Assembly (NCBI RefSeq): GCF_030253575.1
Contig: NC_080559.1
Span: 16,106,501 to 16,170,500 of the forward strand
Source: Rhododendron vialii
Taxonomy: Eukaryota > Streptophyta > Magnoliopsida > Ericales > Ericaceae
Direction of reading: 5' to 3'
Length of the DNA: 64,000 bases
The translations under genes and the position numbers were made by a program. Numbering within the stretch: position 1 is the first letter of the stretch; each line of letters starts with the position of its first letter. Positions 4,181-61,577 of the stretch are shown here, one piece after another. Under the pieces are notes generated by a model, which was not told the DNA's origin, searched no databases, and saw only the letters and a program-made list of their open reading frames with translations.

Positions 4181-4554
4181 CGGGACGGTTTAAGGGACAC
4201 TAAAAAAAACACCTAAAAAACACCTCAAATCTCAATCTCATAGTTTCCGATCAAATTTTTATGATCCGAACCGTTTAATGTGTGCAGAATGTGATTTTAA
4301 GGGTGTCCGCGAGAAATTAGCAAAAAAAATGACCGAGAAATGCTTGATTTGAGTAGTTTTTATTTGAACCATTCAATAAAAAACTGTTTGAAACTGTTCG
4401 GATCAAGCCCTTCTTGGTCAATTTTTTTTAATGATTTCTCGCGGGTATCCTTAAAATCACATTCTGATCATATTGAGCGGCTCAGCATCAAAATTTGATC
4501 GGAAACTAAGAGGTTTTTTTAGGTGTTTTTTTCGGTATTCCCAGAACCGCACCG
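4181..4554. mobile_element. Mutator-like foldback MITE, copy 1
   Basis: Almost the whole 374 bp is one imperfect palindrome, with arms carrying ..tttccgatcaaatttt.. and its complement. The ends resemble cgggacggtt / aaccgcaccg and are flanked by a perfect 9-bp duplication, tttttaata (4172-4180 and 4555-4563). A 9-bp TSD points to the Mutator superfamily. Related copies lie at 13848-14181, 14191-14483 and 16586-16951. Confidence 0.8.
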
Positions 4555-5544: not shown

Positions 5545-6610
5545 GGCCATCCACAGTGGTATAATAAAAAATGGATAACCAAAAGTTGACACATCAGCTT
5601 TTGATTATTCACTTAAGAGGTTGTTAAGCTTAACAATATTGAGGTTCACAATGGTCACTTCTAATCCATAACCAAAATAAGGGGTCCACTACAATTTCAC
5701 ACAATCTCTCTCTTCCTCTCTGTTTTCCGTTATCACTTCCCTCCATTACATTTTTTTTATAGCAAAAATATATCAAACATGTGGTGTTCTTCCTAGTGTT
5801 ATCTATCAAAACAACACCAAAACTTTTTTTTTCTTCCTATTCATGTAGCCTATATCACAAATCCACCACTCTTTTAATCTTTTAAAAAAATCAGATGTGT
5901 TCTTGAATTTGGAAAAGAATGCAAGATTCTTCCTTCTTTTTTTTTACAAAGTTCTTCATTTACTCAACCATAGGTGAAGGAACCAAAAAAGAATAACTAC
6001 TTTTTAGTCGAAAAAATCATTTTTTTTGTTGCTAAAAAGTGGTTATTTCTCAAAATAATTGGGTAAAAATAAAAATAAAAATACTTTTTCGATTCCTTTT
6101 GTCAAGACGAATCAATAACCCATAAAAATTTGATGCAAAACTAACAAATGCGAAAAAAATTCAAATAAAGACAATTTTCAGATTTAAGTTAAGTTAATAA
6201 GAATGCAGTCTAAAATAGAAACGAAAAAGAAGAGTGAAATACCTTAATCCAACAACGATGGGTTAAATTATAGATGATCGAGAAATATGAGTTTCACTTT
6301 TGGAGGAAAAGAAAGAGAAACGTTTGTGGTTGAAGTGAAGAAGATATAAAACAGGTGAAGAAGAGAAGAAGAAGAAAATACTAATTGAAATACGCGTGTA
6401 TATAATTTTGGAACCAGTTAACTTATGTGGTGTGGGGTTCACAAATTTTGATTATTGAAAAATGTTGCTAGTTTTGGTTATCCAAAGCCCAAAATTTGAT
6501 TATTTCTAAGGATGTTGTTAAGTTTGATTATACCATTGTGATCCATTTTTTGCACCAATATTGTTAACTTTAATAACAATTGGCTTTTGATTATACCACT
6601 GTGGATGACC
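5545..6610. mobile_element. PIF/Harbinger-like (Tourist-type) element A
   Basis: The terminal inverted repeats ggccatccacagtggtataat and attataccactgtggatgacc match over about 21 bp. The element is flanked by TTA (5542-5544, 6611-6613). Length is 1066 bp with no transposase coding sequence. Its right-hand 286 bp are included in the 620-bp tandem duplication and recur at about 6945-7230. Confidence 0.85.
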
Positions 6611-7565
6611 TTAGAGCATCCTCATTATAATAAGCAAATGAGTGTGGATAAATAAATTTAATAACAATACTAAAAAAACACCCCATATTGTAATAAGCAA
6701 AATTATAAGTTTTTTAACAAATAACCAAATTCCACACATTTCATAATCAAACTTAACAACTTTTATCAATAACCAAAACTCAATAACTAAACTCAAAACT
6801 CAATAACTCAAAAACACCCCACATTGAAATCGTCTCGAATAATTTAGTGTGGTCGGATGTATTATTTGAACTCATATACGATTGGACAAATATGCATTGT
6901 GTATTGTGAGGTTTTTTTTTGGTTAGGGATGCAATAATAACTAATGTGGTTGAAGTGAAGAAGATATAAAACAGGTGAAGAAGAGAAGAAGAAGAAAATA
7001 CTAATTGAAATACGCGTGTATATAATTTTGGAACCAGTTAACTTATGTGGTGTGGGGTTCACAAATTTTGATTATTGAAAAATGTTGCTAGTTTTGGTTA
7101 TCCAAAGCCCAAAATTTGATTATTTCTAAGGATGTTGTTAAGTTTGATTATACCATTGTGATCCATTTTTTGCACCAATATTGTTAACTTTAATAACAAT
7201 TGGCTTTTGATTATACCACTGTGGATGACCTTAGAGCATCCTCATTATAACAAGCAAATGAGTGTGGATAAATAAATTTAATAACAATACTAAAAAAACA
7301 CCCCATATTGTAATAAGCAAAATTATAAGTTTTTTAACAAATAACCAAATTCCACACATTTCATAATCAAACTTAACAACTTTTATCAATAACCAAAACT
7401 CAATAACTAAACTCAAAACTCAATAACTCAAAAACACCCCACATTGAAATCGTCTCGAATAATTTAGTGTGGTCGGGTGTATTATTTGAACTCATATACG
7501 ATTGGACAAATATGCATTGTGTATTGGGAGGTTTTTTTTGGTTAGGGATGCAATAATAATTAATG
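6325..7565. repeat. 620-bp tandem duplication
   Basis: The block from about 6325 to 6944 recurs almost base for base at about 6945-7565 (offset 620, few differences visible). The unit joins the right part of Harbinger element A to the left part of element B, so the duplication post-dates both insertions. High identity suggests it is recent. Confidence 0.9.
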
Positions 7566-7669
7566 TGGAGGTAGAAGTTGTTAAATTTGATTATGAACTA
7601 AATGGATAATCGAATGCTGACGTGGTACATTTTGATTATTGATTTTGATTATTACCATTGCGGATGCTC
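6614..7669. mobile_element. PIF/Harbinger-like element B, abutting element A
   Basis: The left end gagcatcctcattataataa (6614) and the right end ttattaccattgcggatgctc (ending 7669) are imperfect inverted repeats flanked by TTA (6611-6613, 7670-7672). The same TTA serves as the right flank of element A, so the two elements share a target site. The left end is repeated at 7234 by the tandem duplication. No coding capacity. Confidence 0.75.
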
Positions 7670-12135: not shown

Positions 12136-14594
12136 TTAACATTGGTAGACGAAACTCATTTGATTGGAAGCAGAAGTATACCCACCATCAACCACCAAAT
12201 TATGTGCCGTTACGAATCCAGCGTCATCACTGGCTAGATACAACACTGCGTGCGCCACATCCTCCACGGTCCCGCATCTCCCGCGCAACAAACTCCCCTT
12301 CTCCCCCACGATTCTACTCACTTCTTCCGATCCCAAATCTGTGTTCCCGAGGAACCTCCGGTACCCACTCACCAGCATCTCCGTAGGAACACCGTGTGGC
12401 GAAACACAGTTCACCCGAATCCCGTGCATGCCTAACTCGCACGCGGCACTCCTCACTAAACCAATTATGGCTTCCTTGGAAAGCGTGTAAGCGTGGGCAG
12501 CTAGGCCCCCCTTGATGGCGGCTGAGCTCGACGTGCATATGATCGATCCGCCATCCCCCCTACGGATCATGGCTCTAGCGGCATGCTTTATCCCGTGTAC
12601 TATCCCGTTTAAGTTGATATCGAGCAGAGTCTTCAACTGGTCCATTTCCAGGAAGGCGATGCTGCCGTTGGGGCCCCCGATTCCAGCGTTGTTGAACATG
12701 ATGTCTATTCGGCCTTTCCATGTCAGCGCGAGTTGCACGGCGGTTATCACGTCGGATTCCTTTGACACGTCGCAGTGCACGTACCGGCCTCTGATGGAAT
12801 CGGCCAGGGTGGCCCCCAGTTCGTCGAGTATGTCGGCTATGACGACGTGGGCTCCGTTTATAGCGAAGATCTTTGCTGTGGCTGCTCCAATCCCTCTTGC
12901 ACCACCAGTTATAACTGCAACTTTTCCTGTCAATCTTTGAAAAATCAACGTATTAATTAAGTTTGATTTCTCAGCAAGAAAAGAAGATCAGTCATAAGAT
13001 AGGAAAGTCAACGCACTGTTGATATTGGTACTTTCAAATTCCTTCAAAAACTGATCAATCAGTTACTCCGTTTCACACAGGCATGAACACATCACTATGA
13101 GCACATATTTCAGTTTCTGACTGTTGGCCCCCCCCCCCCCCCCCCCCCCCCGCCCCGCTAGCTTTTGGGATAAGCCACAAAGTTTTTTTTGGGAAATTAT
13201 AATGCTAAAATTGTTTTTGTTGGGGTCAAAATTTTAGTGCACAAAAGGCTTATACTATGTGTAGTCAAACAAAAACAGTTTTGACATTACCACTACTATT
13301 TTATCCCTAAGATGAGAAAACGGTAATGTAACAGGCACAAACATTAATTAATACAATAATCCCTCCCGTCAATAATTTTAGTTGAGTAATGCTACAGACG
13401 TAAAATTCTCAGACACAGATGTGTTCATAACCGTTAGATGTATATAGTTCAGTTGGACCTATACACGTTGAATGGTTGCGAACACATCCCATATATATCC
13501 AGACATCCGTGCCTAAATTATTTTTGGTTATAGTTTCTCTTTGAGAATCTATATGTTGTTTTTAAGGAGATATCATTATACATGATTTCAACATGTATTA
13601 TTATGCATGTAAAAGATTTCAAAATTTACCTGTTATTTTGAAAATTTGAAAACAGGGATCTATTGGTCAATTTTAATAAAGAAAGGATGAAAAATAAAAA
13701 GATCAATCAGAATTTTAACTTTGAGTACTTGTCAAAACAGACATGTACAAGGCATTGACATCCATCCACAAATATATACAGTAAAATAAAAGACCAATTA
13801 AATTAGGAAACGGGCTGCTATATATATATATATATAAAGTTAGGTTCTGGTGAGGAATCCCTCATTTTATTAAAATGCGGGACTCCCCTTCCCGATTGAA
13901 TTTCGATGATCCGAGCAGCTCAAAGTAATCAGAACGTGATTTTAAGGGTCCCCGCGAGAAATCAGCAAAAAAATGACCGGGAAGGGCTTCATCCGAGCAG
14001 TTTTCATTGAACGGTTACAAAAAAACTGCTCGGATGACGCCCTTCCCGGTTATTTTTTTTGTTGATTTCTCGCGGGGACCCTTAAAATTACGTTCTGCAC
14101 ACATTGAACGGTTCGGAGTTTCAAAATTTGATCGGGAAATAAAAGTCCTTCATTTTAACAAAATGAGGGATCCCTCACTTGAAAATTCCTCTATATATAA
14201 AATCCGAACCGTTCAATGTATGTAGAATGTGATTTTTAGGGTGCTTGGGAGAAATTAGCAAAAAAGATGACCGGGAAATGCTTGATTTGAGTAGTTTTTA
14301 TTTGAACTGTTCAATAAAAAACTGTTCAAAACTGTTCGGATCAAGCCATTCCCGGTCATTTTTTTTGCTGATTTCTCTTTAATTCCCTTAAAATCACGTT
14401 TTGATCACATTGAGCGGCTCGGATCATCAAAATTTGATCGGAAACTATGAGATGTTTTTTTGGGTGTTCCCGGAACCGCCCCGTATATATATATATATAT
14501 TCAGCCAATTAAAGATATATAATCAAACCAGACCAACGTACCTTTCCCCTGATAGACTCGGCTCATCAGCATTTACATGAGCATTTAGCTCCAT
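12136..14594 (-). CDS. Short-chain dehydrogenase/reductase (SDR110C / ABA2-like family)
   Basis: Two coding exons on the minus strand, 14594-14542 (53 bp) and 12934-12136 (799 bp), join in frame to give 283 aa. The junction restores ..GE-R-LTGKV; donor is gtacgt, acceptor ttttcaaag. Classical SDR marks are present: TGGARGIG (residues 27-34, NAD(P) binding), Asp52 after the second strand (NAD preference), NNAG (99-102), Asn125, Ser154 and YTLSK (Tyr167, Lys171). The tail HNLVVDGGYT is typical. The family includes xanthoxin dehydrogenase (ABA2), momilactone A synthase and secoisolariciresinol dehydrogenase; the substrate cannot be told from the sequence. The 1.6-kb intron carries a C24 tract and two foldback MITEs. 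The open frame upstream of exon 2 has only a TTG, which is why the upstream ATG exon was sought and preferred. Confidence 0.88.
13128..13151. repeat. Poly(C)24 tract in the SDR intron
   Basis: Uninterrupted C run followed by cgcccc. On the transcribed minus-strand gene it reads as poly(G). Exact length may be unreliable in assembled sequence. Confidence 0.8.
13848..14181. mobile_element. Mutator-like foldback MITE, variant copy A
   Basis: Long palindrome with arms sharing the family core (cgcgagaaatcagcaaaaaaatgacc / its complement) but different outer ends, gtgaggaatccctcatttt and aaaatgagggatccctcac. Lies in the SDR intron next to short TA repeats. TSD not resolved. Confidence 0.65.
14191..14483. 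mobile_element. Mutator-like foldback MITE, truncated copy B
   Basis: Shares the family core and the right end ..ttcccggaaccgccccg, but lacks about 85 bp of the left terminus seen in copies 1 and C. It follows copy A almost directly, in the same SDR intron, and is followed by a TA repeat, so a TSD cannot be recognised. Confidence 0.65.
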
Positions 14595-14599
14595 GATGA

Positions 14600-16585
14600 T
14601 GTCCTCAGAATTTTGTCAAGAGAAACTTGGTCATGACTGTTATATATTGAAAAATGGGTGAAAAAAGTAGGTAGTGGTTAGAGGAATGGGGAATTGTTTG
14701 CTATTACACGCCCTTCTCATTTCCTCCAACTACTCTTGATCAGCTTGTTACTTACCTAATAGCTAGCTAGCTAGCTAGGTGGAGTAGTGTTTTACGTATA
14801 TTGTAGGCAATTACTGCATGTTTTATATAGTCACATGCAATTCCCTGACGAACCTACTTCTCAGCTAAATTACTACATGGTCTTAATTTGCACCCAACAA
14901 TATATCTTTCTTGAAATTAAAATAAGAAGATTAAACCAGTACTTTATCTAATTAATTGTTTCAAGTGACATTGCCAATGCGGATGGGTTCGGTTACTTTG
15001 GTATTCATCGGTTTCAGGTGAAATTGACATTCCTAATCGAAAGTCGATCAGCTTGAACATTTATCCATTATTAAATTAAGTTGGAGAATAAGGCAAGAAA
15101 ATAATTGTAGCTCAAATCGTAGAGAAGAATCCTTTCTCGCCAGAAGTCGGGAGTTAAAAAGGCCTGTCAGGAACATAAATTTGTTTTTTTTAGAATGGTG
15201 CACCTTATTCCACATGTTCAAGAAGCAAAAGATCAGTTTCCAATGGCAAGCAAAAATAACGTGGGTGGCTTCCTAATTCTTTATTTTTGGCTCGGCAGGG
15301 TGGCTTCCTATTGGAATCACGTCATATCAATTTAGTAATTTCTAGAATGCTGCAACTTGGTACCGGCTCCTGGAACACCACCTCATTGTGTTTCATAGAC
15401 CTTAATCATCACGCATTAATGTGAATTTCATACATTTAGTTCTGGATCCTAGGTGAATGAGTGGTATACTAGTAAAGACTTTTGGAACACTGATACTCCA
15501 AGAACAAATAATACTCCGAGGAAGTTAGCTCTTGAAGTGGCCATGAATTCTCACTTCGTAATCCTCAACTCTCTCCTGGGAAGGGCCCATATTCAGGAGT
15601 TTTTATTTTTGTTTTTTATTATTATCTTGGCTATGATTTTATGGAGCAAAAATCTTATCCTCCTTCCATATAACGATTTCTTAGAGCATCTTCAACCTAT
15701 TTTTATTTTTTAAATTAGAAAATGAATGTGACATATTGATGAAAAATTTTATAATTTATTTTCTCTTTTCTTCACTTTATATATTTTATGAGAGAATTTT
15801 GGCGGGACCTATCGTTTTATTGGTGCTAGTGGGCGAGTCTCTTTTGTGGTGGCTGGCTTGTGAGTCCTTATTGGTGCCTTTTTTAATAAATTACAAGAGA
15901 TCTAGAATAATATTGATATTTATGATATTGAACAAAATGTTTGACGTCCGAGCTTGGAAGCCAAAATAGATTTTTATATCTAGGCGTCCCAAGGGGGGAG
16001 GATGTGTCTGATTTCAGGCCAAGTCTCGGGCTCCGGACTGGCTAGCTAGTGCGACAGCGTACCGCTTTGCCTGCACGCGTATCAAAGCATAAGGACAAAA
16101 TACTGCCCGATTTGGAAAGTGCGATGTGCGAATATCAAATCAACTCCGTTATGCATGAAACTCGTCTGGAGGTTAGAAACTTAGAATACCATAATATCAC
16201 TGTTTACCGGAACCTTACTTCTTTTTTGTTAACTAGAGAGGGGACTGCCTTTGTTCAAAGATGTCATGTCTCATACTTTGGCTATGCACATTCAAATGTT
16301 TTAGAATATTTGTCATACCAAGTGACTGTTGGACTTTCTGGTAGAAAACCTGGTTCGTCCGACGTCGATTGGTGCTTATCGATAGATGTGCATTCTTCGT
16401 ACGTTAGATGAGGGTTGACGCTCTTGTAAGAGAGAGTTCAATAGAGAGTTTCGTTTTTATTTTAGATAACTACATACTTATAGTATATAGTATAAGTTTA
16501 AAATTTTGTGACCTGAACGCTAGTGAATTAAAAAAATAGGAGGAAATTCAGTTCATCTTCCCTCAAGTTCAGCCAATAGAAAGAT
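14600..16585. other. Intergenic, no gene recognised
   Basis: Upstream of the SDR gene. One 120-codon open frame (16049-16411, plus) has ordinary amino-acid composition but matches no family I know and has no obvious introns or neighbours of its own; it could be a pseudogene remnant. Otherwise AT-rich DNA. Confidence 0.4.
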
Positions 16586-16951
16586 CGGGGCAGTTGCAGG
16601 AACACCTAAAAAAAATCTTAAAAAAACTCCAAATCTCAATCTCATAGTTTCCGATCAAATTTTAATGATCCGAGCCGCTCAATATGTTCAGAACGTGATT
16701 TTAAGGCGACCCGCGAGAAATTGGCAAAAAAAATTATTGGAAAGGGCTTGATTTGAGCAGTTTTTTATTGAATCGTTTAATAAAAAACTATTCGGATGAA
16801 GCCCTTTCCGGTCATTTTTTTTGCTGATTTCTCACAGGTTCCCTTGAAATCAAGTTCTAATTACATTGAGCTACTCGAATCATCAAAATTCTATCGGGAA
16901 CTTTGGGGTATTTTTTTAGATGTTTTTTTAGATATCCTCGGAACCGCCCCG
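16586..16951. mobile_element. Mutator-like foldback MITE, copy C
   Basis: Ends cggggcagtt and gaaccgccccg, palindromic body with the family core. The flanking nonamers tagaaagat and aagaacgat match 7 of 9, consistent with an aged 9-bp duplication like the perfect one at copy 1. Confidence 0.7.
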
Positions 16952-17387
16952 AAGAACGATATTAAATTCAGCCATTTAAATTTTATATAAATACACATAT
17001 CTCCCCTTAACTTAGCAGAGTCTAACCACATGACAAAATCCAAGTGAAAAAAATTAGGAAAAAAAATTTAAAACGGAAAGTTTTGAAAATATTGAACTTG
17101 AAAGTTTAGAAAATATTTCTTTCCTACTCTTACTGATTGAGAGGATTTTGGAATTAATTCGACATAAAAAATTATTCATTCTGTTTATGAATGGATTATT
17201 ATAAATATCATAAATTCCAATCATGCAATCGGATTTGGCTTCTCTAAATTCAGCAACTATTTCCAGTAGTGAATTAGAGTTATCGTAGAAAAAAAAGTTT
17301 TTGTAGATAATTTTTTAATTAGTGAAAACGAGATAGTAAAATGCTGAATCTTTTTTGTTAATAAAAACGAGATGGTAAAATGCGTTA

Positions 17388-20900: not shown

Positions 20901-23900
20901 GATTTGGGAAACAATTAACAGCCATAAAAGGGTTCATTCTATAATGTACTGTATCAAAACATTATGTCCTGAACTTTGAAATTTCAAAGTTGACAAATGC
21001 TATGAAGTGAATATTCAGTGGATTGCTCTTTTCAGTATCTTGTCTTGAACCCCATTTTACAATATATGTAGGGTCCACAAGCTGATGAGCTGGCTGCTGC
21101 TTCAAGACTGGAAGATGATCTCAGCTTCTATCAAACTGCTAGTCCCGAAGTGGCAAAACTTTTCCACATTGACCCCAAGTCAAACGTCCAGCTCTTGTCT
21201 TGCTGAAGAAGGAGGCTGAAATGATCAGCCACTTTGGTTAGTTTTGACATCCTTGTAATGATTGAAGACTCTTAAAATTTACGGTGCTCAATCATTTTGG
21301 TTACTCTTTCAATTGGGCGTACAGATGGTCAATTCACCAAATCAGCAATTGCTCAATTTGTTAAAGAGAACAAGCTTCCTTTGGTGACCACTTTCACCAG
21401 GGAGGTTGCTTCAGTAATATTTGAAAATCCAATTAAGATGCAGGTGTTACCTCATACTAGTGTCACTTATCTTAAATATGGTGTTCTTAACTGTTCACTG
21501 GATTTAGGTACATATTTTTCCTGTTTCAGTTTCTGCTTTTTGCTACTTCCAATGATTCAGAGAATCTTCTACCTGCGTTCCAGGAGGCAGCAAAAGTTTT
21601 CAAAGGAAAGGTAATTTTTATAGGATTTAATGTTTTCATATTCTGTTGCATGTTGATAAGGAATTTTTTGGTACGTTTCTCCTATGTCTTTAAAGTCACA
21701 CAATAACTATGGGCCTATGGCGCTGTCTCAAACCTTGAAGAAGAATACATATCAAATCTTACCCAACACCAACAGCCAAACTAGCAGACTTGCTTATCAA
21801 AATGCCTTGGGACATTGTTATTCGGTGAGAAATTTCCTCTTGTATTGGGTAGTTTGGAAATGTCAGAGCAAAATGACGGACTATACTCTTGAGTCCACAA
21901 GTAGTTTAGTGATGTCTTTCATCGGCAACCCAAGTATAAGAGTGGTCACATTGCAGTTATAGTACCATTTTTTTATTGTGCTTTTTATTTACATCATTTC
22001 GAGTCATATTTTCATGGTTAGTCTTCAGTATTATCCATGGAGTCACATTACAGCTTAAAACAATTAGTCCAAGCTGCAAGCATACTTGCATGGTAAGAAT
22101 CAGTTCTAAATGCAAACTTTGTGAAAAGGAATACGAGGCCACTGGTGGCCAAGGTAGTTTTTTTTTTTATAATAATCTTTGATAGTATGAAGGCCAAGTC
22201 AATTTGAACTATTGCATTCCAGATAAGTCCTTTATGTCAAAAGGGAAAGAGTCCCTGATCCTTTTTTTAAAAGCGTAAATTAGCGTTGAATATCTTGCTC
22301 TTTGCTTGATATTTGGGTGGGTGTTACCTGTGATGTTTTTGTTGGGAATCGGGTTTGTTGAGAAGTTTTTTTTTTTTGGTAAAGAGAGATTCTATTACCA
22401 AAAAAGAGACATGAATACAAGAAACAAGGGGCATAGCCCAGAGAATGTCCAGCCATCTACTGGGAACAAGATAGGAAAAGCAACAACTAAAAAAACAAAA
22501 GCCTAACTACTGCTAGTTACAAATTTTTTTCTGAGATGTTCCATGCTCTACACAAAGCTCTATTAACAGGGCTATGACCAAAATTCTGCCAAGAAGATGC
22601 CTATCCCGCACATTGGACCTTGACAATCATATCATAAATGGCAACCAAAGTGTACTGCTTGTTGCAAAAACAGTGTCATGCCTAGCCTTCCAAATGTATT
22701 ACACTGTCCCCGCCGTTGCTAACTTGTAGAGGGCAGATGAAAGGCCTTTCTTCTTGAGGTGCTGAATAGCCCAATCCATTTCTTGCCTCCACTCTGTTGA
22801 ACTTCTAGAAATGTCAAACATATGAAGAACTTTACCCTAAATGTAGGCTGAGAAAGAACAATAAAAAAAGAGATGCTTATGGGACTCATTCACATTAGAA
22901 CATAGAACACATAGGGGATCCACCATCAGTCCCCAAGAGAGAAGTCTATCCTTTGTCAAAAGTCTACCCCAGCAAACAAGCCACATAATAAATGTCCATC
23001 TAGGAATACCTTGCTTGAACCAAACAGTCGGAGCCCACAGAACTTTAGGGAGAGGATTTCTAAGAGCCTCCCAAGCAGTTTTAACAGAGAATGTACCATT
23101 TGAGGCAGGAATCCAGATCACAGAATCATCAACACCTGTGTTAGGCCTGAGGTTTGAAGGGGCACTCCTCATAATTTGCATAATGGCCCTATTTCTTTCT
23201 CTAGGCCAGCGCCACTCTCCATTTTGAATTATAGATGAAACCTTGGCCAGAAGAGCTGCCCGCATTCTATGCCTTCACCAAACACTTTATAGAGAGGTCC
23301 TACATCATGCCAGTAATCCAGCCAAAGAAAAGTAATGTTCCCATTTGCAATCAAATACTTTATGAGGGGCTGCACTACCTCTCTAAGATTAAAAAGTTTT
23401 CTAATGGTCCACGAAGAGTCTTGACTCTTGAGGCAAACACAACTGCCAAAGACACTTTCTTTTTATAATGTATGAATGAATCCATTTAACCATAAAGAGT
23501 CAGATTTCTTGCTCAAAGCCCACAAGTGCCTAATCATGGTCTATGTAGCATCAACACTCCTAGAGGTTGGCGTGTCCCTGTGTCCATCACGGGGAGACGA
23601 CAAAATACATATGGGACACGCCACTTGGTGTGTCCAACAAATTTACTTAATTTTTTTAGGGGGACATGGCAGGGAGTCGCGAGGGACACGTATGGGGACA
23701 CGGCAAGAGTTAAATATGCAATTTTTCTTTAAAACTTTGGGGTTAAATGTGTAATTGCCTTCAATATTTTAGAATAAATATTTTGTTGTGCGATGTATAC
23801 ATGATGCTTGCTTATAAATATTGAAGCTTCAAGTTTATACACCTAACTATATTTTCACTGGTATACAAGAAATATTATTTATTTATTTATTTTTGCCGTG

Positions 23901-41062: not shown

Positions 41063-42500
41063 GGGAGAAAAACTATAATAGTCCTTGTAGTTAAGTGTTT
41101 GTGTCAATTTGGTCCCTGTAGTTATAATTGGCTTGATTTACATTCTGTATTTTCCATTTTGTTTCAATTTGGTCCAATTACTAACTTCTGTTAGTCCTTT
41201 AAATAGCAAAATCATACGGCCTCCTTTTTTGGGGTTAAAACAGACCCGTTCGGCTAAATAAGCCAACTTCCTTATTTTTTGTCCTTATTCAAATTTTTTT
41301 TCCATATTTGTTAGTTTTTCGTCAATTTTTTGGGAGTTATTACATCGTCATGACAAGAAGAATCTAAAAAGTAAAAAATTATTATCGAAATTCAATTTTT
41401 TTTGAATAAAGACGGAAAAATTGGCTTTGGTTTATTTTTCAACGTTTCTAGTCAGGAATCAGTGCATGGGCCAAGCGTAGGAAAATGAATGGAATGACAT
41501 GGCACTATTTTTTGTAACCACTTGGGCTGTTAAGTTAGGTTTATTATAACCTAGTTGAGTGGTTTGTTATGTTTATGTATTAGGCTATGACATGATAAAT
41601 TTGGAACTGAGTTTATATAATATTCTGACTTTTGGACATGGTTATTTATCATGTTCTGACTTTTGGATCTATATCATGTTGTAACTTTTGGACATGGTTC
41701 TATATGCATTTTCAGTACTATGCAGAAAATAAGGCATCTCAGTATTTGTCCACAAGTTGAACATGTAGACAATATCAGTGGTTATGATGCCTCATGGCTG
41801 ATCATGAAAATGCTGAATTCGATGACAACTTTTTGTAGAAAATTATAACCAAATTTCTTCCCAAGTGCCTCATTATCAATGGAGAATGGAAGAATGAGCT
41901 GTGTTTTGATTCAGAGGTATATTGGGGTAAGAGGGGAATGAGTAACCCTATTCAGCTAAATAAGCCAACTGCCTTATTTTTTTGTCTTTATTCAAAAAAT
42001 TTGGTATTTGTTAGTTTTTCGTCATTTTTTTTGGAAATTATTGTATCGTCATAATAAGAGGAATCTAAAAGTAAAAAATTACAATCGAAACCTAATTTTT
42101 TTTGAATAAAGACAAAAATAAGCCAATAAGCCAATTTTTTCGTCTTTATTAAAAAAAATTGGATTTCGATTATAATTTTTTACTTTTTAGATTTCTCTCG
42201 TCATGACGATACAATAACCCCAAAAAAATTGACGAAAAACTACAAATACGAAAAAAAATTCAATAAGGATAAAAAAATAAGCCAATTGGCTTATTTAGCC
42301 GAACAAGTCTATTTTAACCCCAAAAAAAGGGGCCATATGATTTTGTTGTTTAAAGGACTAACGGCGAACTAACGGAAGTTAGTAATTGGACCAAATTGAA
42401 ACAAAATGAAAAGTACAGAGTGTAAATCGAACCAATTACAACTACAGGAACCAAATTGACACAAATACTTAACTATAGGGACTATTTCAGTTTTTTCCCC
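41063..42500. mobile_element. Non-autonomous MULE with long terminal inverted repeats
   Basis: The first ~380 bp (gggagaaaaactataatagtcc..) are mirrored by the last ~380 bp (..ggactatttcagttttttcccc). The element is flanked by a perfect 9-bp duplication, ttattattt (41054-41062, 42501-42509), diagnostic of Mutator-like elements. No transposase is encoded. Inside, a second palindromic family (..cgtcatgacaag.. / ..ctcgtcatgacga..) is nested at about 41268-41440 and 41960-42290 and recurs at 52203-52487. Confidence 0.9.
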
Positions 42501-50369: not shown

Positions 50370-52202
50370 TTATTCAGAGTATTTTGGATGTATCAGATTT
50401 CTTTTTCTCTAAATAGTAATACCAGTAATACAAACAAATCAATTATGAAAAAAATAACAATCACTATAGTTGGAGATGCAAGATTCTTATTGTGAGGGGA
50501 CCAAATTACATGTATTCATATATTAACGACAAAATATCATCCTTGTACAATAATGATACAATTTTGATGGACTTTCTTCATAATTTCTACAAACAAAACC
50601 CAAAATGACTAGAAATAATTGGATAATTGGGAGGTGTGCAGGCCCCGGACTCTTGCTTGCAGCCTTGCACCCTTGGTCTGCCCCTAATCACTACACAAAT
50701 TTTGTTAGGTGAGTTTGCCTAACTTTATTATTAGATTAACAATATTTTTGACGACGAGAGAGAATTAAGTCTAAAATTATGATAAAAAATTAAAAAAAAC
50801 TTACTAAAAACAAAATAATCAGAATTATTTATTTATTTTTATCTTTAATAAATACTTTTAACTCTCAATTACTATGTAAATTAATCATGAGTCCAAAGTG
50901 AAATGTTAGTGTAAGCTTTCATCCTAGTTCTAACACTGACTTAAGTTATCATCCTATAATTTTAGAGTTCACCTAAAATATCATTCATCTTTGTATATTC
51001 GAATGTAGTGAATATTTTTTAATCGATCCTAATTGATTTCATAACATTGATTGGTGAAATAACGAATCGCATTAATTGGTTGACAACAATATTCAATAGA
51101 TTAATTTGGAAAAGAATACTACCTCAATTGATGGGAAGAAGATTAATGAGAGAGAATAAAATTCAAATTTTAAACTTTGGAATATAAGATTTCCGGATCT
51201 GGGGTTGGTGCTGCCGGGCAGCACTGTGCTGTCCCCCGCGAGTGCGGTCCGCTCCAAGTTTTCCATAATATTATCCAGAGTAAGAGGTTCATTCTCTAAG
51301 TCCTTCATCCTTTAAGCTATTTATCATACTGCCAATGGACAACATCAATATTCACAGATTGTATATTCAAAATCAATATGAAGTTTTTTGCACTCCCCAA
51401 ATTGTTAACTTTGGGGAGTGAGAAAATCACTCCCCGTCATTTCTATTTTCACATATTAGGCGACGTGGGACTATGGCCCATTATGGGCTCTCACAATTTC
51501 CCCACCTTGTGATGCAAGGTCCTCTGGTGGTCATGATGTGGCACTTAACTTTGTACAGTACACAAAGCTCGTACCAGATTCTAGAGGTGACCCCCACCAT
51601 GTAGACCAGGGTTACGGTCTGATACCAATTGTAACGATTCGCGTTAGTTGACTTACTTACCATTAGCCTAACCACGTGACTCAAAAGGTTAACCTCACCT
51701 CAGGTTATACAGTAGTTTGTCAAAATCACTTTATATACCATATATTAGGTGATGTGGGACTATGGCCCATTATGGCTCTCACATTATGTATCAAGATCAT
51801 GCTTTTTTTTTCTCGATAAGCCTTCATCCAATAAGTTGTTCATTCATTATTGAACAAAAGATGGTTGATTTGATAATCGTGTAATCGATGAGTTTACAAA
51901 GGCGACATTCACATTGTTCAAAGCATGCTAATTTCCATTTTCCAGAAACTATGATATACTATTTGTTATGTATGCCTAACTGTTAGATTATAGCGGGCGA
52001 ATTTGAGCGTGTTAAAAATAATATGGGTTTAATTGCAACCTCTAATTTCGACCGAATGAGCTGTCCCATAAGCTCTTAAGCACGTGTTCTTTGGTTCTAT
52101 ATTGCGAGAAAAAATAATCTCTTTAGCACTTAGCTTTAAATAGGTTTATCATTGAAAACAAATGTCAGAAAAGCTGGCCTATATTGGTCTAAGTCAAATG
52201 GT
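49900..52202. other. Intergenic with repeats, no gene recognised
   Basis: Holds a (TTA)13 microsatellite at 50332-50370. A ~40-bp direct repeat (..ttaggcgacgtgggactatgg.. near 51456 and ..ttaggtgatgtgggactatgg.. near 51745) brackets about 250 bp of repeat-like DNA related to 40800-40960. The pair looks like the edges of a degraded LTR or TRIM element. Confidence 0.5.
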
Positions 52203-52487
52203 TCATTTTTTTGTCATTATTCAAATTTTTTTGCATTTGTTAGTTTTCTGTCGATTTTTAATGAATTATTGCTTCGTCATGACAAGAAGAATTAAAAAAT
52301 TACAATCAAAATCCAATTTTTTTAATAAAGACAAAAATTAGCTAATTTTTGTCTTTATTAAAAAAATGGTTCCAATCTTAATTTTACTTTTTAGATTCCT
52401 CTCATCATGACGAAATAATAATCTACACACAAAAAATCGAGGAAAAACTAACAAATGCGGGAAAAAATTGAACAAGGACAAAAAAGA
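52203..52487. mobile_element. Foldback palindrome related to the MULE interior
   Basis: A ~285-bp imperfect hairpin centred near 52345. Its arms (tttgtcattattcaaa..cgtcatgacaagaag / complement) match the inner palindrome of the MULE at 41063-42500. No TSD recognised. Confidence 0.6.
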
Positions 52488-52873: not shown

Positions 52874-54379
52874 TCAACACAAACCGGCAGACTTCCAGAA
52901 CTCTGCAGGCTTACGATGCTGAGAAGGGTAAAAGTTAAAACCGTAAGTTATTTACTGTGGGAAAAATGCAAATCTAAAGTGGATGCAGTGATACAAGGAA
53001 ATGACATAATAATCTTAGCACATGTGAATCATATTCATCCGGTTATGGCCACCATGGATATATAAACAAATCTGTAAAAACAAAAGCCTAGAGTCTGTAG
53101 TCTCTCTCCTGTATTGTTACAACTCAGCTCAACTGCATCCTGTTAAGCCACTACTCGGAGAAAACCCTATATTTATACCAGAATAGAAATGCTGGTTTGA
53201 GATAAACATTGGTTCAGTTTCGTCCAAATATTGCCAAAGGTCAGATTTGTCTCTCATCTAATCCTTAGTTACACGAAGCGGAAGCGGGAGCGGGAGTGGG
53301 AGCGGGGGCGGGGACGGGAGAGCGGATGATCACAGAAGTGTGGGAGCGCCATTGGGAGCGGTTAGGAAAAATTATTAAAATTATAAATATATTTTGAAAT
53401 TTTATATTGTTAAATGTCAAAATAAAAATATTATTCTACCACATAAAATATTAATATTAAAATTATAAGTTTCTAGTTATATTTCAACATTTTTATTGTA
53501 GCACATGATTACACAATAGAGCTCTTATGCATATTAAGTAGGCGTAAAAGTTAAGGGCATTAATATGATTCTAGAAGGTTAATATCAGATGTGCTCACTA
53601 ACAAGATCAAAACAACTTTAAAGGTACCAATTGCAACTTGAATCGTAAGTCTCTCAACCGTTTTTTGGTGTAAGTTCCCGTATAGGTAAGGAACGAGTTC
53701 CCGTCGTCATTGGGACGGGTTTCTTGGAGTTTCCTTCGACGGGAACGCGGAAACGTGTATCAGTCGAAGAAACGTGGGCATAATTGAAGGTTCCTGCAAC
53801 TAAGATCTAATCCTTCCCAACAACTTCTTTGAGTACGAGCACATTCCTATGTGTAAGCTTATTTCCTTCAACATACTGCAACACCTTGTTAGTCGTTTTA
53901 GACTCGAGGAAAAACGCCCGGTGGGTGCAGAATTATGTGATCCACCAGACCTATAAAGCACGGATACTCTATTTTGGCCTCCATATCACATACCGTATGC
54001 ATATCGGATATGGATACACTCGGATATGCTCCGGATACGTATCCGATACGTTTTTTAGAGTATCCGATTTTTTATTTTATTTTTTGGTATTCGGATACGT
54101 TCGGATGCGCTGGGATATGTTTTGGATACGCGTGGGGTAAATATGTTTTTTCTTAAAACATATGGGTTAAAGTGCAATTAGGGCTATATTTGTTTCTTCT
54201 ACCCTATCGATCAGAATCAGAAACGATGAAACGAACCAAAAGGCAGGAAGAAAGAAGGTGATTTCCTCTCATCTATCTCCGACCTGCTCGTCTCTCTCTC
54301 CTCCCTTGTCTCTCTCTCTCGTCTCTCTCGCCTCTCATCTCTCTCGCTGTGTTGTTGTGTGTATATACTATATACAGTG

Positions 54380-54418
<39 letters not shown>

Positions 54419-57400
54419 CATATATATCTCGCCTCTCTCTCTCTTCAGTCACATCTCTCTCTCTCTCGTTCTTGTCTGAGACTGAAACCCTCATATATTA
54501 CATATATATACTTTGTTTTTTTTTAACAATCAGTCTGAGACTTTTCAAAATTATATTTATATAATATATATAATATATTTTTTATTTAATTTTATATTCA
54601 ACGTATTCCCTAATGTATCGTATTCTACTTTTTGAAAAAACCACGTATCCGTATCTCGTATCCGTATCTATATCCGTATCCGTGCTTCTTAGCACCAGAC
54701 AAACAAAATTTGAAAATATCCTACTTTTTGAAAAAACCACGTATCCGTATCTCGTATCCGTATCTATATCCGTATCCGTGCTTCTTAGCACCAGACAAAC
54801 AAAATTTGAAAATGCCGTAACGTACATCATATAATGCATATGTATTCACTACACTCTATGTTACATGGATCTTTCATTTTGGCTCAAGTACCCGTGTCGA
54901 TGTGTCCGACACCCGTAATATTTTGGACACTCGGATCCTCTAATTGTTACGATACTTATAGAAAAGGAATATCAAACTAGCTAGAAAAGCGATATTTCGA
55001 GTATTTCACATAGACAAGAAATAGGGAAATAGCAAAAACATAATTTTCTTAACCCTTTATTGTTTAAATACATTTGTAAACATAGTTTATGGTACATAAT
55101 CTGGGAAAATTATGCAATATATAATACAAATAAGAGTTCAAGACGTGTCCCTGTATCCGTACCCAAGTTGGGGACACATATCCACGTATCCTAAGATTTA
55201 AGTTTAGGAAGGTCCGAAGCTTGGACTTGCACCCGCACCCGATACTCGCACCCGAGTCCATGTAACATAGACTACACTACCTTCTCTTGTGAAAAGCTTA
55301 CAAGTTAGGTTGGTTAGGATAGAAATTAGATATTATGGCTAAAAGAGTGACAAATATGATAGGAACTCATGTAACAGTACCAGACATGCTATTTATATAA
55401 AGAATGCACTACAACTATGTGATTAAGATAGGACTATTTACCAGTAACAAAGACAGCTAGGGCTATTATTAATATCGCATGACAAATGAATTCGGCATTG
55501 TGTTCAGGTAAAAGTTTTACCAAATTGTACCTTGGAAATTGGCATCTTTGCTCTGACTGAATTGATCAATGAAAAATCGATATCTGCCACAGTAATACCC
55601 ATTGATAACCGATCTGAGACAGAAAAATCAAGAGTGACTGTGAGAGAAAAGGGTTTGCTAAAGTTGGCCTCATCCCATTACGAGTGCCACAAAGAACATT
55701 CGGCACAGAAAATTGCTTACCATACTCCGAGTGATCTGCAGATTTAAAAGATACCCAAGTCCCAATTTATAGAAAGAGACATTTTTCTAAGCAGAGACAA
55801 TAGCAATCCATCCCCGCAAGAAACTGTATATTTGATCGACCATTGACTCTATTAGATCAAGTCCTAACTCCTAAGTGAATGAAGATCACATCTGCTGTTA
55901 TTATTTGGTCGTTGACTGTAGCGGGAACAAGAAAAACATTAAAACCATTTTGCAAAAGATTGATCCATCCGTATGTTTTAGAGCTGCAAAGGTAACTAGT
56001 AGAGATAGTTCAAGAAACAATAGTTTGTTTCAAACTCCGCATAGAAAGTTTCCCAATCCTATCTCTCCCTTAGGGAGTGGCAGACCAAGGATTTGCCTCA
56101 CATGGAGGCACATTTTACTAATAACCTTAAGAAAAAATTGAAATTAAGCGCAAAGCCACAAACTATGGGAAATTGAATTGTAAATTTCAATCATTGAGTA
56201 AAAACCAAAAAAAGAAATGAAGGCCTGATTTTCCCAAACAATCAAAATATATATTACGAAACTTAAAAGGAAAGAATAGAAGGTCCTAGTTTATGTAGCC
56301 CCAAATAAAAAGTCCTTTCAATAAAATGTTACTTTTGGCGATCAAAAATATATATGTAGCCCCAAATTTAATTGATGATTGGTGAGGGACGCGGTGAGGT
56401 GACCGGCGACGACCATAGAGACGAGCGACCGGCAACGATGAAGTAAACCGAGCGTCCGTCGAGTTTTCTATGTGGGTTTTTCGTTCTCCCACTCATTTTG
56501 GCTATAAAAAAAAAAAAAAACTCACTTTTGCCTAAAAAACAAACTGTAAATTAAAAAAAAAAAAAAAAAAAGGGGGGCGGGGGGGGGGGGGGGGGGGGGG
56601 GGGGAGGGGGGGGGGGCACATGACCCCACATGCCCCAAGGTGGGTCCGCCACTGCCCTCATGGCATAATTTGGCTCGTGTTTAAGGTAAACCACTCGTGT
56701 TATATTAGCTCTAGTTAATATGGGCTTCCAAGGCAAATACAGTCCTAAGGAGCTAGTGTCATGAGGGGAAGAATTGAGACAAGATACGAAGATAAAGAGG
56801 ATTTTCCCCATACCAAATAATACAATACATTCATAGAAAGAGTAGACACGAGTTACATATCAACACAACCATAGTCACAATTCAGCTTCAGCATTTTACA
56901 AATAGAGAACCCATGTAATGCACATTGCATTAAAAAGGACAATGGCAATTCAATATCAAAAGCACAAACTTGTAGTTCACTTGTTGATATTTTTTACTGC
57001 CACCAATGTAGTTTCTGATGTGCTCCCAGCTCTTTGGAGAGCGATTTACAATTATGATTCTAAGAAGCAATACAAGGAACCACAAATGAAGCACCAAAAT
57101 ATGCAACTATGCAAGGGAAACAGCCTCACCAGGTAGCCGACCAACTACAGTCCCCCATGGATCAATTATCAAGGTGTTACCATAGCTTTCTCTTTTGTCA
57201 TTATGTTTTCCAGCTTGTGCAGCAGCTATGACCTGTTTATGTGTTTATAATCATCATTTCCCGGAAAAAAAAAAAAAACACCAATACAAAGAAAAGCACA
57301 CATGAATGCTGGCTCAGAGCTACTGCCTGGCATAGATGCAAAGAATTAAAAATGGTGACCACTAGACAAAAGTGTGCCACAACGGGAGATTGGATACTAA

Positions 57401-60400
57401 ATGATGTTTGTGCGACCCTGTACAAACACGAGTTGTTCTCTTTTACTGCTTTTGAACCCAACAAGGCCTTTGAAAGATTCCTACATGGAAATTTTCAGCA
57501 TTCTATGCTGTTACCTGATAACTGAAGCAAGAGTTTTCCAGCTAAGAACTTTTCATGTAGGAAATTTACTCAATCCTCAATTGCTAATCTTAAAGAGTAT
57601 AAACCATTGGGAACATGAACAGAACTGCAAAGAAGCAGTAAGGGTGGAAGTACCAGCTCCATGAGCACAAGTTTTTAGTGGCTATTCGGTACTTTAGTTG
57701 ATAACTTGAGACTAAAAAAAAGATACCAACGTTATGGGAAGCAATTAAAGTAACTTGTTAGACTTGCTTGCTTACAGCATCAGGGTCATCGGTCAGTAAA
57801 AGGCACCTACATCGTTATAGGTTCACTGGTCGAAGGAAATTTAGTTAAACGATACAGAAATGCTGTATTAAGCATATTTACAGGGATCAAAATCTAAAAA
57901 TAAATAAATCAAAAAAGTAATGTCTTGTGAAAAACAATTCAAGCATGATTTCTTCATGAATAATGATACAAACAAAACAGATGATCGAAATTTCATACAT
58001 AACATTGAGTTTCTATGGCACGCGCACGAAGAAGAATTTCCCAGTGTGCCTGACCAGTTACTTTTGTGAAAGCTGCTGGTACCAACAATACCTAGATATT
58101 GACAATCAGTCAATGTTAGGCACAAAAAACCCCTTACTCTAATAAAATAGAGGAAATTCGTCTGCTTGTACCTGTGCTTCATGATTGAACCTCAACTGTT
58201 GATAGAGCTCTGGGAATCTCAAATCATAGCAAACAGTCACACCCAAACGTCCAAACGGGCTGTCTACCGCAACAATGTCCTTCCCTATAAAACTTCACCT
58301 CTTTGAATTGCTTGAATGGTAGACATAAGTTATGCCGGTCAATTATATTTAAGGGGATTGTTTTACCTGGAGAAACATGAAAACAGAACACAAAGCATAT
58401 TTATATGTAATTAAACAAGAAAATCATTTGACACAAAAACCCACACATTGGTTCTAGTACACCCACTCGCTCATTTATCACAGGTAGCATATTAGTAATG
58501 GTTAGACATCTTATACTCAGAAGGTATCAATATGTTTCAATAGTCTAGGAAAACCAAAGCATCAGAACATCTTTCTGTTAGCAATTATGTGTAGTTAAGC
58601 GATAGGTAGGCGGAGTTGGATTTTAGTGCATAGTTACTTCATTCACATGTTCATCTTTTCCAAGAGGTGTGCAAGAAAACCATAGAAATAAGTTATATGT
58701 ATCACATGCATGGTGCAGAAAACTAAATTAACTGTTTTTTTATGTTCTTATATTCTAAAACAAAAAGGAGGATTTCAGAAGAGGAAGAAATTCATCAAAC
58801 CACCGGGGCATATCAGCTATATCGTGAATTAGTGCATACCTGCTTCTGTAAAGCTGCTCTCCTTGAATACCATACCACCAGGAACATCCACATCAAACCT
58901 TCAGAAATAACCAAAAATAGCTCTTGAATATCATGTCAATTCAGCTGTATATGGGAAGCACAATCAACCTGGCTCTGATGAACATGGTTTAACAAGCCAA
59001 AGACAGCATGTTTTCATGCTTAAATTCCATTTACACTACTAGAATGGAAAGAAGAATCAATCGTGAAAAGTTTAGAACTGAATATCAAATATCTTACAAG
59101 AACATTTTTGAATATGTGCTCCTAATATTCCCGGCATCATCAATTAATACATGGGTGTTACGCAAGTGCGCATCATCAGATCCTTTTTCTTGGAATCCTC
59201 CAAGTGACAACCAAATGCTCGACTCCCTGCAAATTATGCGAGCTATGTGTTATTAGAAAAAGTCTGACAAAAACAAACCTACACGTAACCAAACTAGTTG
59301 TAGTCAGAAAAATTTAAGCTCTCGACAAAAATGACAGTCAAGAAGGCAACATTCATAGTTAACAATTCAAGTGACGAACTGACATACTAGAAAACAAACT
59401 CTTAAATTTGATTGAGCAACAAATGAACATAGCTTTAATACCCAGCTCTCAACCTTTTCACTGGACAACTACTGAAGCTTTTTCCATCTAGAAGTAAAAA
59501 ATTCAGAGAGAGCTAAATTTAAGAGAGTCTCACCTGGCAAGAGAACAGTAACCTTTCATAATAGGTCCATCAAGGGATTCTGCAATCTTAAGACTATCCC
59601 CATCCTTGGCACCTACATAGGAGAAATTCTCAGGAAAACACAGCAGCTTTGCCCCTGCAGCAGATGCTTCCTATGCAAATACAATGTCAAAACTTCGATC
59701 AGAAATGCCTACACTCTACATGCACACAAGTATGATCAGTTTGTCTAGCTGGTCAATATAATTGGACTCCATCAAATTTTATTTGATGGTATATTGGTAT
59801 TTAAAACAAGATCAAAGAACTGATTAGAATACCAACTGTATTGGACCGGACCGATGGCCCATACCCGTTCCATTCAGTTAGGCCCATCCAAATTAAGAGG
59901 CCTGACCTTAGTTGCAGGAACCTTCAACTATGCCCACGTTTCTTCGACTGATACGCGTTTCCGCGTTCCCGTCGAAGGAAACTCCAAGAAACCCGTCCCA
60001 ATGACGACGGGAACTCGTTCCTTACCTATACGGGAACTTACACCCAAAAACGGTTGAGAGACTTACGATTCAAGTTGTAATTGGTACCTTTAAAGTTGTT
60101 TTGATCTTGTTAGTGAGCACATCTGATATTAACCTTCTAGAATCATATTAATGCCCTTAACTTTTACGCCTACTTAATATGCACAAGAGCTCTATTGTGT
60201 AATCATGTGCTATAATAAAAATGTTGAAATATAACTAGAAACTTATAATTTTAATATTAATATTTTATGTGGTAGAATAATATTTTTATATTGACATTTA
60301 ACAATATAAAATTTCAAAATATATTTATAATTTTAATAATTTTTCCTAACCGCTCCCAATGGCGCTCCCACACTTCTGTGATCATCCGCTCCCCTGTCCC

Positions 60401-61304
60401 CGTCCCCGCTCCCGCTTCGTGTAACTAAGGGTCTGACAACCCAGCAGCTGAGCCCAGCCCAAACGGCAGGATGGCCATTCGGTCCATGGCATTGTGAGCC
60501 GAGCAAACTGTTTGGGTCAGGGAATTACAAGCCACGTACGACAGGATGGCGAGACATGTCAGACCAGTCACCAATGGCATGGTTCTGCCACTCATACTTG
60601 CCTACATGGTGCTTGGCAATCGTCATGCATGACTTCAAACCGTGAGGTAGTTATTCAAGACGTCATGGGAGGCACAAGCTCGACATGAGCTAACTTGGAG
60701 GCTAAAGCAAGTCTTTCCCTATATAATTAACCGTTTGGAGGCACACAAGCTCGACATGACCAGTCACCATTGCTAACTTACTGTTCACTCAAGAGTTTAT
60801 TTCCCTTCCTTAAGAGACTTACTTAGCCCTCAAAGTGCCTTAAGACTTACTTAGCCATCAGAGCACCTCCTAGTTTACTAGGGCGGGTCAGGCACAGAAG
60901 GTGGTTCTTTCTTGCAAACCCAAGTAGAGGGAGGTCTAGACATCCAGATCCGTACTCGGAGGTCCACAAGGAGGTCCGAATAAACAAATTGGACAATTGG
61001 CCAAGAGCATAGCACACACATAGAGTGGCACAAAACTCTTGTTCGCCTTTCCACTGACTAAAATAAATACTTATTTTTTGAATTAAAGGTAATGTATTAT
61101 ACTTACAAAATAAGAACCGTACAGGAATGGGTCTAAATTACTCAAAAAAGCACGGCCAAACAAGATTGCCGTTACTTTATTCACACTTTTTCAATGCACC
61201 AGAATTAACGCCATTGATGCGTCGTTGATTTTTTTTTTTTTTCAATTCGATCGTGCGATTAACATAAAATCATAATTAAAAAAAACATAGCTCATAAAAT
61301 CTGC

Positions 61305-61346
<42 letters not shown>

Positions 61347-61577
61347 CTTGACAAGGCGAGAGCATGTGGCAAAATTGGCGGCTAGGTCGTTGATGGAGGT
61401 CATCTGAGCTGCGGCGACTCGGACTGAGTTGGCCATGGTAGACTCGCGGGCGGCGACGGCAAGTACCTTTACGGACCTGGGATGAGGATATAGACTGTTG
61501 GAGTTTGGGGTCGACCTTATTAGAAGACGAGAGGAGGGCTGTTTGGTTGGGACTTGGGAGTAGAAACAAAATGCCAT
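52874..61577 (-). CDS. NLP2: Nitrilase-family deaminated-glutathione amidase (NLP2-like)
   Basis: Nine minus-strand exons: 61577-61347, 59670-59534, 59226-59098, 58898-58840, 58284-58172, 58091-57999, 57232-57130, 55613-55531, 52918-52874. Together 993 bp, 330 aa. The nitrilase Glu-Lys-Cys set is visible: Glu91 in CFPENFSY, Lys163 in YSKMF, Cys204 in VCYDLRFPE. Other family phrases are [41 protein letters not shown] and [13 protein letters not shown]. The enzyme repairs deaminated glutathione, a by-product of transaminases. The first ~50 residues, Ser/Arg-rich, look like an organelle targeting peptide; an internal ATG at 61436 would give a 283-residue cytosolic form. The final exon is only 45 bp (ends ..EFWKSAGLC). 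Introns 1, 7 and 8 are filled with MITEs. The residue after Lys163 plus one is Phe where relatives carry His. Confidence 0.92.
53264..53804 (+). mobile_element. hAT-like MITE family cttagtt, copy 1 (nitrilase intron 8)
   Basis: Ends cttagttacacgaag and ..ttcctgcaactaag are inverted repeats with two differences. Flanked by a perfect 8-bp duplication, atctaatc (53256-53263, 53805-53812). Length 541 bp, no ORF. The left subterminal zone is an array of GCGGGA/GCGGGG-type hexamers. An inverted copy lies at 59907-60429. Confidence 0.92.
53951..54692. mobile_element. hAT-like MITE (cggatac-rich) in nitrilase intron 8
   Basis: Left end ctataaagcacggatac and right end gtatccgtgcttcttag are near-perfect inverted repeats. 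Flanked by an exact 8-bp duplication, caccagac (53943-53950, 54693-54700). Interior carries many cggatac/gtatccg repeats, (CT)n runs and a (TA)17 tract at 54382-54416. The right end plus flank is duplicated once more (to 54788). Confidence 0.85.
54625..54816. repeat. 96-bp tandem duplication across a transposon end
   Basis: The unit 54625-54720 recurs at 54721-54816 with three visible differences at its tail. Each unit contains the last ~68 bp of the MITE, the caccagac target duplication and about 20 bp of host DNA, so the duplication happened after insertion. Confidence 0.92.
54856..55270. mobile_element. hAT-like MITE (ctatgttacatgga family) in nitrilase intron 8
   Basis: Perfect 14-bp terminal inverted repeats ctatgttacatgga / tccatgtaacatag. 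Flanked by an exact 8-bp duplication, actacact (54848-54855, 55271-55278). Length 415 bp, non-coding. TIRs are close to those of 23541-24000. Confidence 0.92.
56081..56655. mobile_element. Possible hAT-like element in nitrilase intron 7
   Basis: The right end ..ggtgggtccgccactg is the CAGTGGCGGACCC-type hAT terminus, and a partly matching inverted end (gtggcagaccaaggatttgcc) begins near 56081. Flanks cccttagg / ccctcatg agree at only 6 of 8 positions, so the boundaries are tentative. Confidence 0.45.
56553..56616. repeat. Poly(A)-poly(G) tract
   Basis: About 19 A followed by about 45 G with single C and A interruptions. On the transcribed minus strand it reads poly(C)-poly(T). Length is the kind of homopolymer that assemblies often get wrong. 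Confidence 0.85.
59907..60429 (-). mobile_element. hAT-like MITE family cttagtt, copy 2, inverted (nitrilase intron 1)
   Basis: Reverse-complement copy of 53264-53804, co-linear over its full length by eye. It is 523 bp, and the 18-bp difference sits in the GC-rich hexamer array (three units fewer). Flanked by ggcctgac / ggtctgac (59899-59906, 60430-60437), an 8-bp duplication with one mismatch. Confidence 0.92.
60438..61050 (+). mobile_element. Possible LTR fragment in nitrilase intron 1
   Basis: GC-richer than the surrounding intron, with a TATA-like cctatataatt near 60719 followed by R/U5-like sequence; similar DNA precedes the MITE at about 59840-59898, so the MITE seems to have inserted into it. 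Ends and TSD could not be defined. Confidence 0.35.
61309..61343 (-). repeat. (CT)17 tract at the nitrilase exon 1 donor
   Basis: On the sense strand the donor reads aag|gtactctctct.., so the microsatellite starts within the first bases of intron 1. Its length changes would not alter the GT but sit inside the U1-pairing zone. Confidence 0.85.

Follow-up and report, generated by a model that had tools for sequence, protein, structure and literature searches.

A single short DNA transposon is found in both intron 1 and intron 8 of a probable Nit1-type amidase gene of Rhododendron vialii, in opposite orientations, and the two copies probably represent two independent insertions of a fairly young hAT-like MITE family into long introns of this gene, normally spliced out as passengers. 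Within the window (the whole 64-kb stretch of DNA that was analysed), the gene, the two copies and the exons between them are arranged as follows:

52874..61577, minus strand: gene of nine exons encoding a carbon-nitrogen hydrolase of 330 aa, probably of Nit1 type, with the ATG at 61577 and the stop codon ending at 52874
59671..61346, minus strand: intron 1, 1676 nt, containing copy B
52919..55530, minus strand: intron 8, 2612 nt, the longest, containing a second, different hAT-like element besides copy A
55531..59670, minus strand: exons 2-8, between the MITE copies, 717 nt of exon, phase 0 at both ends
53264..53804, plus strand: MITE copy A, 541 bp, in intron 8; TIRs CTTAGTTACACGAAG / CTTAGTTGCAGGAAC (12/15), TSD ATCTAATC
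59907..60429, minus strand: MITE copy B, 523 bp, in intron 1, in opposite orientation; TSD GTCAGACC/GTCAGGCC (7/8)

The host gene and the two MITE copies

All eight introns of the gene have GT-AG ends, and the 330-aa reading frame is intact. Exon 2 (59670-59534) and exon 8 (55613-55531) bound the segment between the copies in our gene model, and the positions 55531 and 59670, between which the earlier note had placed a conceivable back-splice junction, agree with this model. The predicted protein matches PF00795 (1.5e-60), and the best of its 38 PDB matches is NitFhit (1ems, 257 bits), followed by NIT2 (4h5u, 169 bits) and nitrilase homolog 2 (2w1v, 145 bits). Because 1ems scores above the other two, a Nit1-type enzyme with a probable function in glutathione repair is probably the better reading of the product; among 11 NCBIfam models, the top two are both for deaminated glutathione amidase, at scores below their cut-offs (215 bits with a cut-off of 500, and 141 bits with a cut-off of 355). 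Alignment with 1ems places a Glu in exon 2, a Lys in exon 3 and a Cys in exon 5, which we take to be the catalytic three of Nit; on that identification, exons 2-8 do hold all three catalytic residues, as had been claimed.

At the junction of exons 3 and 4 (59098, 58898), a Phe stands two residues past the Lys (YSKMFLFD), at a position occupied by His (KLHLFD) in both Nit structures whose alignments were displayed, of the 38 matched. This replacement may indicate altered activity or a changed paralogue. Scans of the window detected neither a structured RNA (Rfam, gathering score) nor a tRNA gene.

The view that a single short DNA transposon is present twice in the gene, in opposite orientation and in introns 8 and 1, is upheld by self-comparison of the window and by the gene model, and alignment confirms the sizes of 541 bp and 523 bp. 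A global alignment between 53264-53804 and 59907-60429 in reverse complement, suggested earlier as a check for exact identity, gave 98.1% and thus not exact identity (513/523 aligned bases), with 10 mismatches (8 transitions and 2 transversions) and a single 18-bp gap close to one end, where the sequence is rich in GGGAGC. The inverted arms (53295-53807 and 59904-60416) are 513 nt long and 98% complementary, with additional terminal arms of 32 nt (91%), and are separated by 6096 nt, in accordance with the spacing of about 6.1 kb noted before. The sequence match between the two copies, taken by itself, goes far beyond chance. The earlier note had further assigned an 8-bp TSD to each copy, which stands for copy A (8/8) and only in part for copy B, where the pair is imperfect (7/8).

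The ends of the element are 15-bp TIRs with 12/15 matching positions, and their terminal motif occurs four times in the window at up to 2 mismatches, precisely at these four ends. They start with CTTAG, a departure from what we take to be the common hAT terminal form, roughly YAGNG, and the designation of the copies as hAT-like accordingly stands on TSD length as far as the superfamily label is concerned. Neither copy contains any of the 32 ORFs of at least 100 aa. Self-comparison and the terminal-repeat scan both give two copies of the family in the 64-kb window, and no third copy that could compete for pairing was found there among self-matches of at least 80 columns (E 1e-5) or among TIR matches with up to 2 mismatches.

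Judged by their sequences, copies A and B are two separate insertions of one family, because their TSDs differ and their flanks are unrelated. Local alignment detected no homology outside the copies, the 300-bp flanks scoring 10 and 11 compared with mean scores of 9.65 and 10.36 for shuffled flanks (n=100 each). An inverted segmental duplication was considered as an alternative origin of the pair and is ruled out by the same unrelated flanks and differing TSDs. The divergence of the copies (K2P 0.019) corresponds to 0.75 to 3.9 million years at substitution rates of 1.3e-8 to 2.5e-9, so that the copies appear fairly young, with the reservation that gene conversion could have lowered their divergence.

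Predicted pairing and chance expectation

The copies had been described as complementary over more than 500 nt in the pre-mRNA, and folding indeed predicts almost end-to-end pairing (513-nt arms, 98%). The transcribed copies cofold at -916 kcal/mol with 516 intermolecular pairs, compared with -122 and -108 kcal/mol for each copy alone and -258 kcal/mol for a control cofold of the copies in the same orientation. When an 8950-nt transcript (61649-52700, ends assumed) was folded, 516 of the 523 bases of copy B paired with copy A in the minimum-energy structure, and a limit of 1500 nt on pair span changed the fold energy from -2971 to -2296 kcal/mol; all these energies are equilibrium predictions for naked RNA, in which co-transcriptional splicing is ignored.

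How unusual such an arrangement is was estimated by a model of two insertions, uniform over the intron length of this gene and with both orientations equally likely. Values are conditional on two insertions in one gene, and ranges reflect calculation with and without the second element of intron 8. The chance of insertion into different introns is 0.80-0.82, and that of different introns with inverted orientation, i.e. of a pair flanking at least one exon, is 0.40-0.41. An inverted pair around the exons with all three catalytic residues has a chance of 0.115-0.123, and an inverted pair in exactly introns 1 and 8 one of 0.041-0.054. At 2612 and 1676 nt, introns 8 and 1 are now the two longest of the eight; with the insertions subtracted, intron 1 measures 1145 nt and drops to third rank, behind intron 7 at 1516 nt. 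By their lengths, both host introns were therefore large targets even without the insertions.

Self-comparison of the window, with rows shorter than 80 columns dropped, yielded eight self-matches on the minus strand that join separate places over 200 columns or more. Several of these fall within one family, and the MITE pair is the only one of the eight to exceed 90% identity. MITEs are associated with 58.2% of genes in rice, according to a review (PMC12595863). The pair described here illustrates that such inverted arrangements can come from ordinary insertion.

Possible fates of the MITE pair

If the copies are passengers, intron 1 would often be spliced out before copy A is transcribed, only a minority of pre-mRNAs would form the duplex, and whatever circular RNA or siRNA came from the pair would be a low-level by-product, not a control layer. 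Past the acceptor of intron 1, the polymerase reaches copy A after 5.9 kb and has transcribed all of it after 6.4 kb. Chromatin-bound RNA of soybean is reported to retain most introns at less than 0.5, with a median near or above 0.25 (PMC8063115). Taken together, the distance of about 6 kb and these retention figures suggest that intron 1 would often, though not in every case, have been removed by the time copy A is transcribed. The same source reports higher retention in longer introns, which counts against the copies being passengers, and its sentence on position, taken literally, has retention decreasing toward the transcript end (PMC8063115); because of these trends in length and position, early loss of intron 1 is not established by the soybean data. 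The great length and stability of the predicted duplex count in the same direction, and so do two observations from reviews: constructs of poplar with altered flanking MITEs gave less circRNA transcript (PMC12595863), and in grape a 40-nt flanking repeat is enough for circularisation, which rises with longer flanking introns (PMC11276256). Low-level RNA effects of the pair are thus possible. The suggestion of the earlier note that circular RNA or Dicer products act as a control layer on the gene is, by analogy, a possible candidate mechanism with plant MITE precedent.

The first alternative to consider is that the intronic duplex brings the donor of exon 8 near the acceptor of exon 2, so that exons 2-8 would be back-spliced into a circle at the expense of linear mRNA. 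We consider this unlikely, although the gene offers its ingredients, with inverted copies in both flanking introns and a predicted duplex of -916 kcal/mol that dominates the full-length fold. One of the closest known cases is that of Populus tomentosa (Song et al. 2021, via PMC12595863), where MITEs likewise lie around the circularised region and where hAT and PIF/Harbinger MITEs are enriched at circRNA loci with support from constructs; unlike the Rhododendron pair, known from its DNA sequence alone, the poplar loci come with circRNA and construct data (PMC12595863). Transposon-related sequence in opposite orientation also flanks circRNAs in maize, where LINE1-like reverse complementary pairs are reported at 17.3% of circRNA flanks, but those are LINE-like elements in genome-wide RNA statistics, whereas a DNA transposon in one gene is concerned here (PMC11276256). 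Circularisation with the 40-nt flanking repeats of grape speaks for this alternative as well (PMC11276256). Against it stand the counts from rice, in which complementary intron sequence of at least 18 bp within 500-bp flanks was reported at 20/2354 circRNAs and MITEs in both flanking sequences at 72/2354 (PMC4647462), and similarly low counts in a review for rice (46/6074), Arabidopsis (1/5152), bamboo (10 sequences among 720) and soybean (2.7%) (PMC11276256). Counts over 500-bp flanks, the length used in the rice complementarity test, might miss the present pair, because the donor of exon 8 and copy A are 1.7 kb apart. The position of copy A, which is also 5.9 kb past the acceptor of intron 1, would be kinetically unfavourable to back-splicing. 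Pairing-driven circularisation is thus known in kind, and in the plants counted it is a minority route.

A stronger version of this alternative, in which the pair drives exons 2-8 into a 717-nt circle of 239 codons without a stop, lowers linear Nit1 mRNA and even makes the circle endlessly translatable into repeats of the catalytic domain, appears very unlikely. Joined head to tail, exons 2-8 are indeed free of stops in frame 0 over three rounds. Special meaning of the in-frame circle was rejected, as it needs only the shared phase of introns 1 and 8: once these phases agree, the frame is open because the exons are coding sequence. Skipping of exons 2-8 would likewise keep the frame, with loss of nearly the whole domain.

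A second alternative assigns the effect to small RNAs: 24-nt siRNAs, whose source could be the MITE duplex or further members of the family, would methylate both introns and might loop the gene. We regard this as quite improbable. According to a review, about 486 of 634 inverted repeats close to Arabidopsis genes give 24-nt siRNAs, and HaWRKY6 of sunflower has an siRNA-linked chromatin loop (PMC12595863). The copies differ by so few bases that siRNAs from one would fit the other. On the other hand, siRNAs over the MITEs may have other sources, or may leave expression unchanged. The Arabidopsis and HaWRKY6 cases share with the present one a MITE-derived complementary sequence at a gene, but they concern repeats near genes that come with small-RNA data, whereas here, known from DNA only, the arms sit in two introns 6.1 kb apart (PMC12595863). 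In one library of openly licensed papers, a search for plant intronic inverted repeats together with siRNA and splicing gave papers on human or neuronal RNAs only, judged by the start of their abstracts. No paper in that library came up for the combination of a nitrilase gene, a MITE, an intron and circular RNA, and prior publication elsewhere is possible.

Two further possibilities may be dealt with briefly. It is highly improbable that the pair matters mainly in DNA, where recombination between inverted copies of 98% identity would turn exons 2-8 around and thereby disrupt the gene. In Brassica napus, an inversion of 29.8 kb is likewise associated with two MITEs that face opposite ways, but there the elements are of the PIF/Harbinger type and the inversion is actual (PMC12595863), whereas the gene is intact and in normal order in this assembly. 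That one copy was misplaced by an assembly artefact is hardly credible, since the copies have separate TSDs, lie in unrelated flanks and are set apart by 10 substitutions and the 18-bp indel, even if copies of one family can be misjoined and a homopolymer stretch at about 56506-56616 makes the sequence locally difficult.

The MITE pair, whose copies are probably passengers, is at present best described as a well-defined candidate, not a demonstrated control layer. If it does drive circularisation or silencing, it would provide a clean natural test of a change in splicing by a transposon pair, because one-copy alleles would serve as controls.

Other repeats in the window

The second hAT-like element of intron 8 (53951-54692, 742 bp) has the ends CTATAAAGCACGGATAC / CTAAGAAGCACGGATAC and the TSD CACCAGAC; a segment of 96-97 bp that takes in the right end of the element, the TSD and flank has a tandem copy (about 99%), to position 54813. 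Intron 7 contains a probable older hAT-like element (56075-56654) bounded by GAGTGGCAGACC / CAGTGGCGGACC and by what may be an 8-bp duplication, with agreement at 6/8 positions. Runs of poly-A and poly-G at about 56506-56616, inside this element, may hamper assembly. Two further multi-copy families consist of largely self-complementary repeats, one at 4181-4554, 13829-14522 and 16585-16990, the other at 41063-42499 and 52190-52485; 41063-41439 and 42114-42499 form a close inverted pair within these families (85%). A tandem duplication of about 625 bp with 99.2% identity occupies 6325-7568, and an ORF at 22837-23265 with a zf-RVT domain (2.4e-24) is presumably the remnant of a retroelement.
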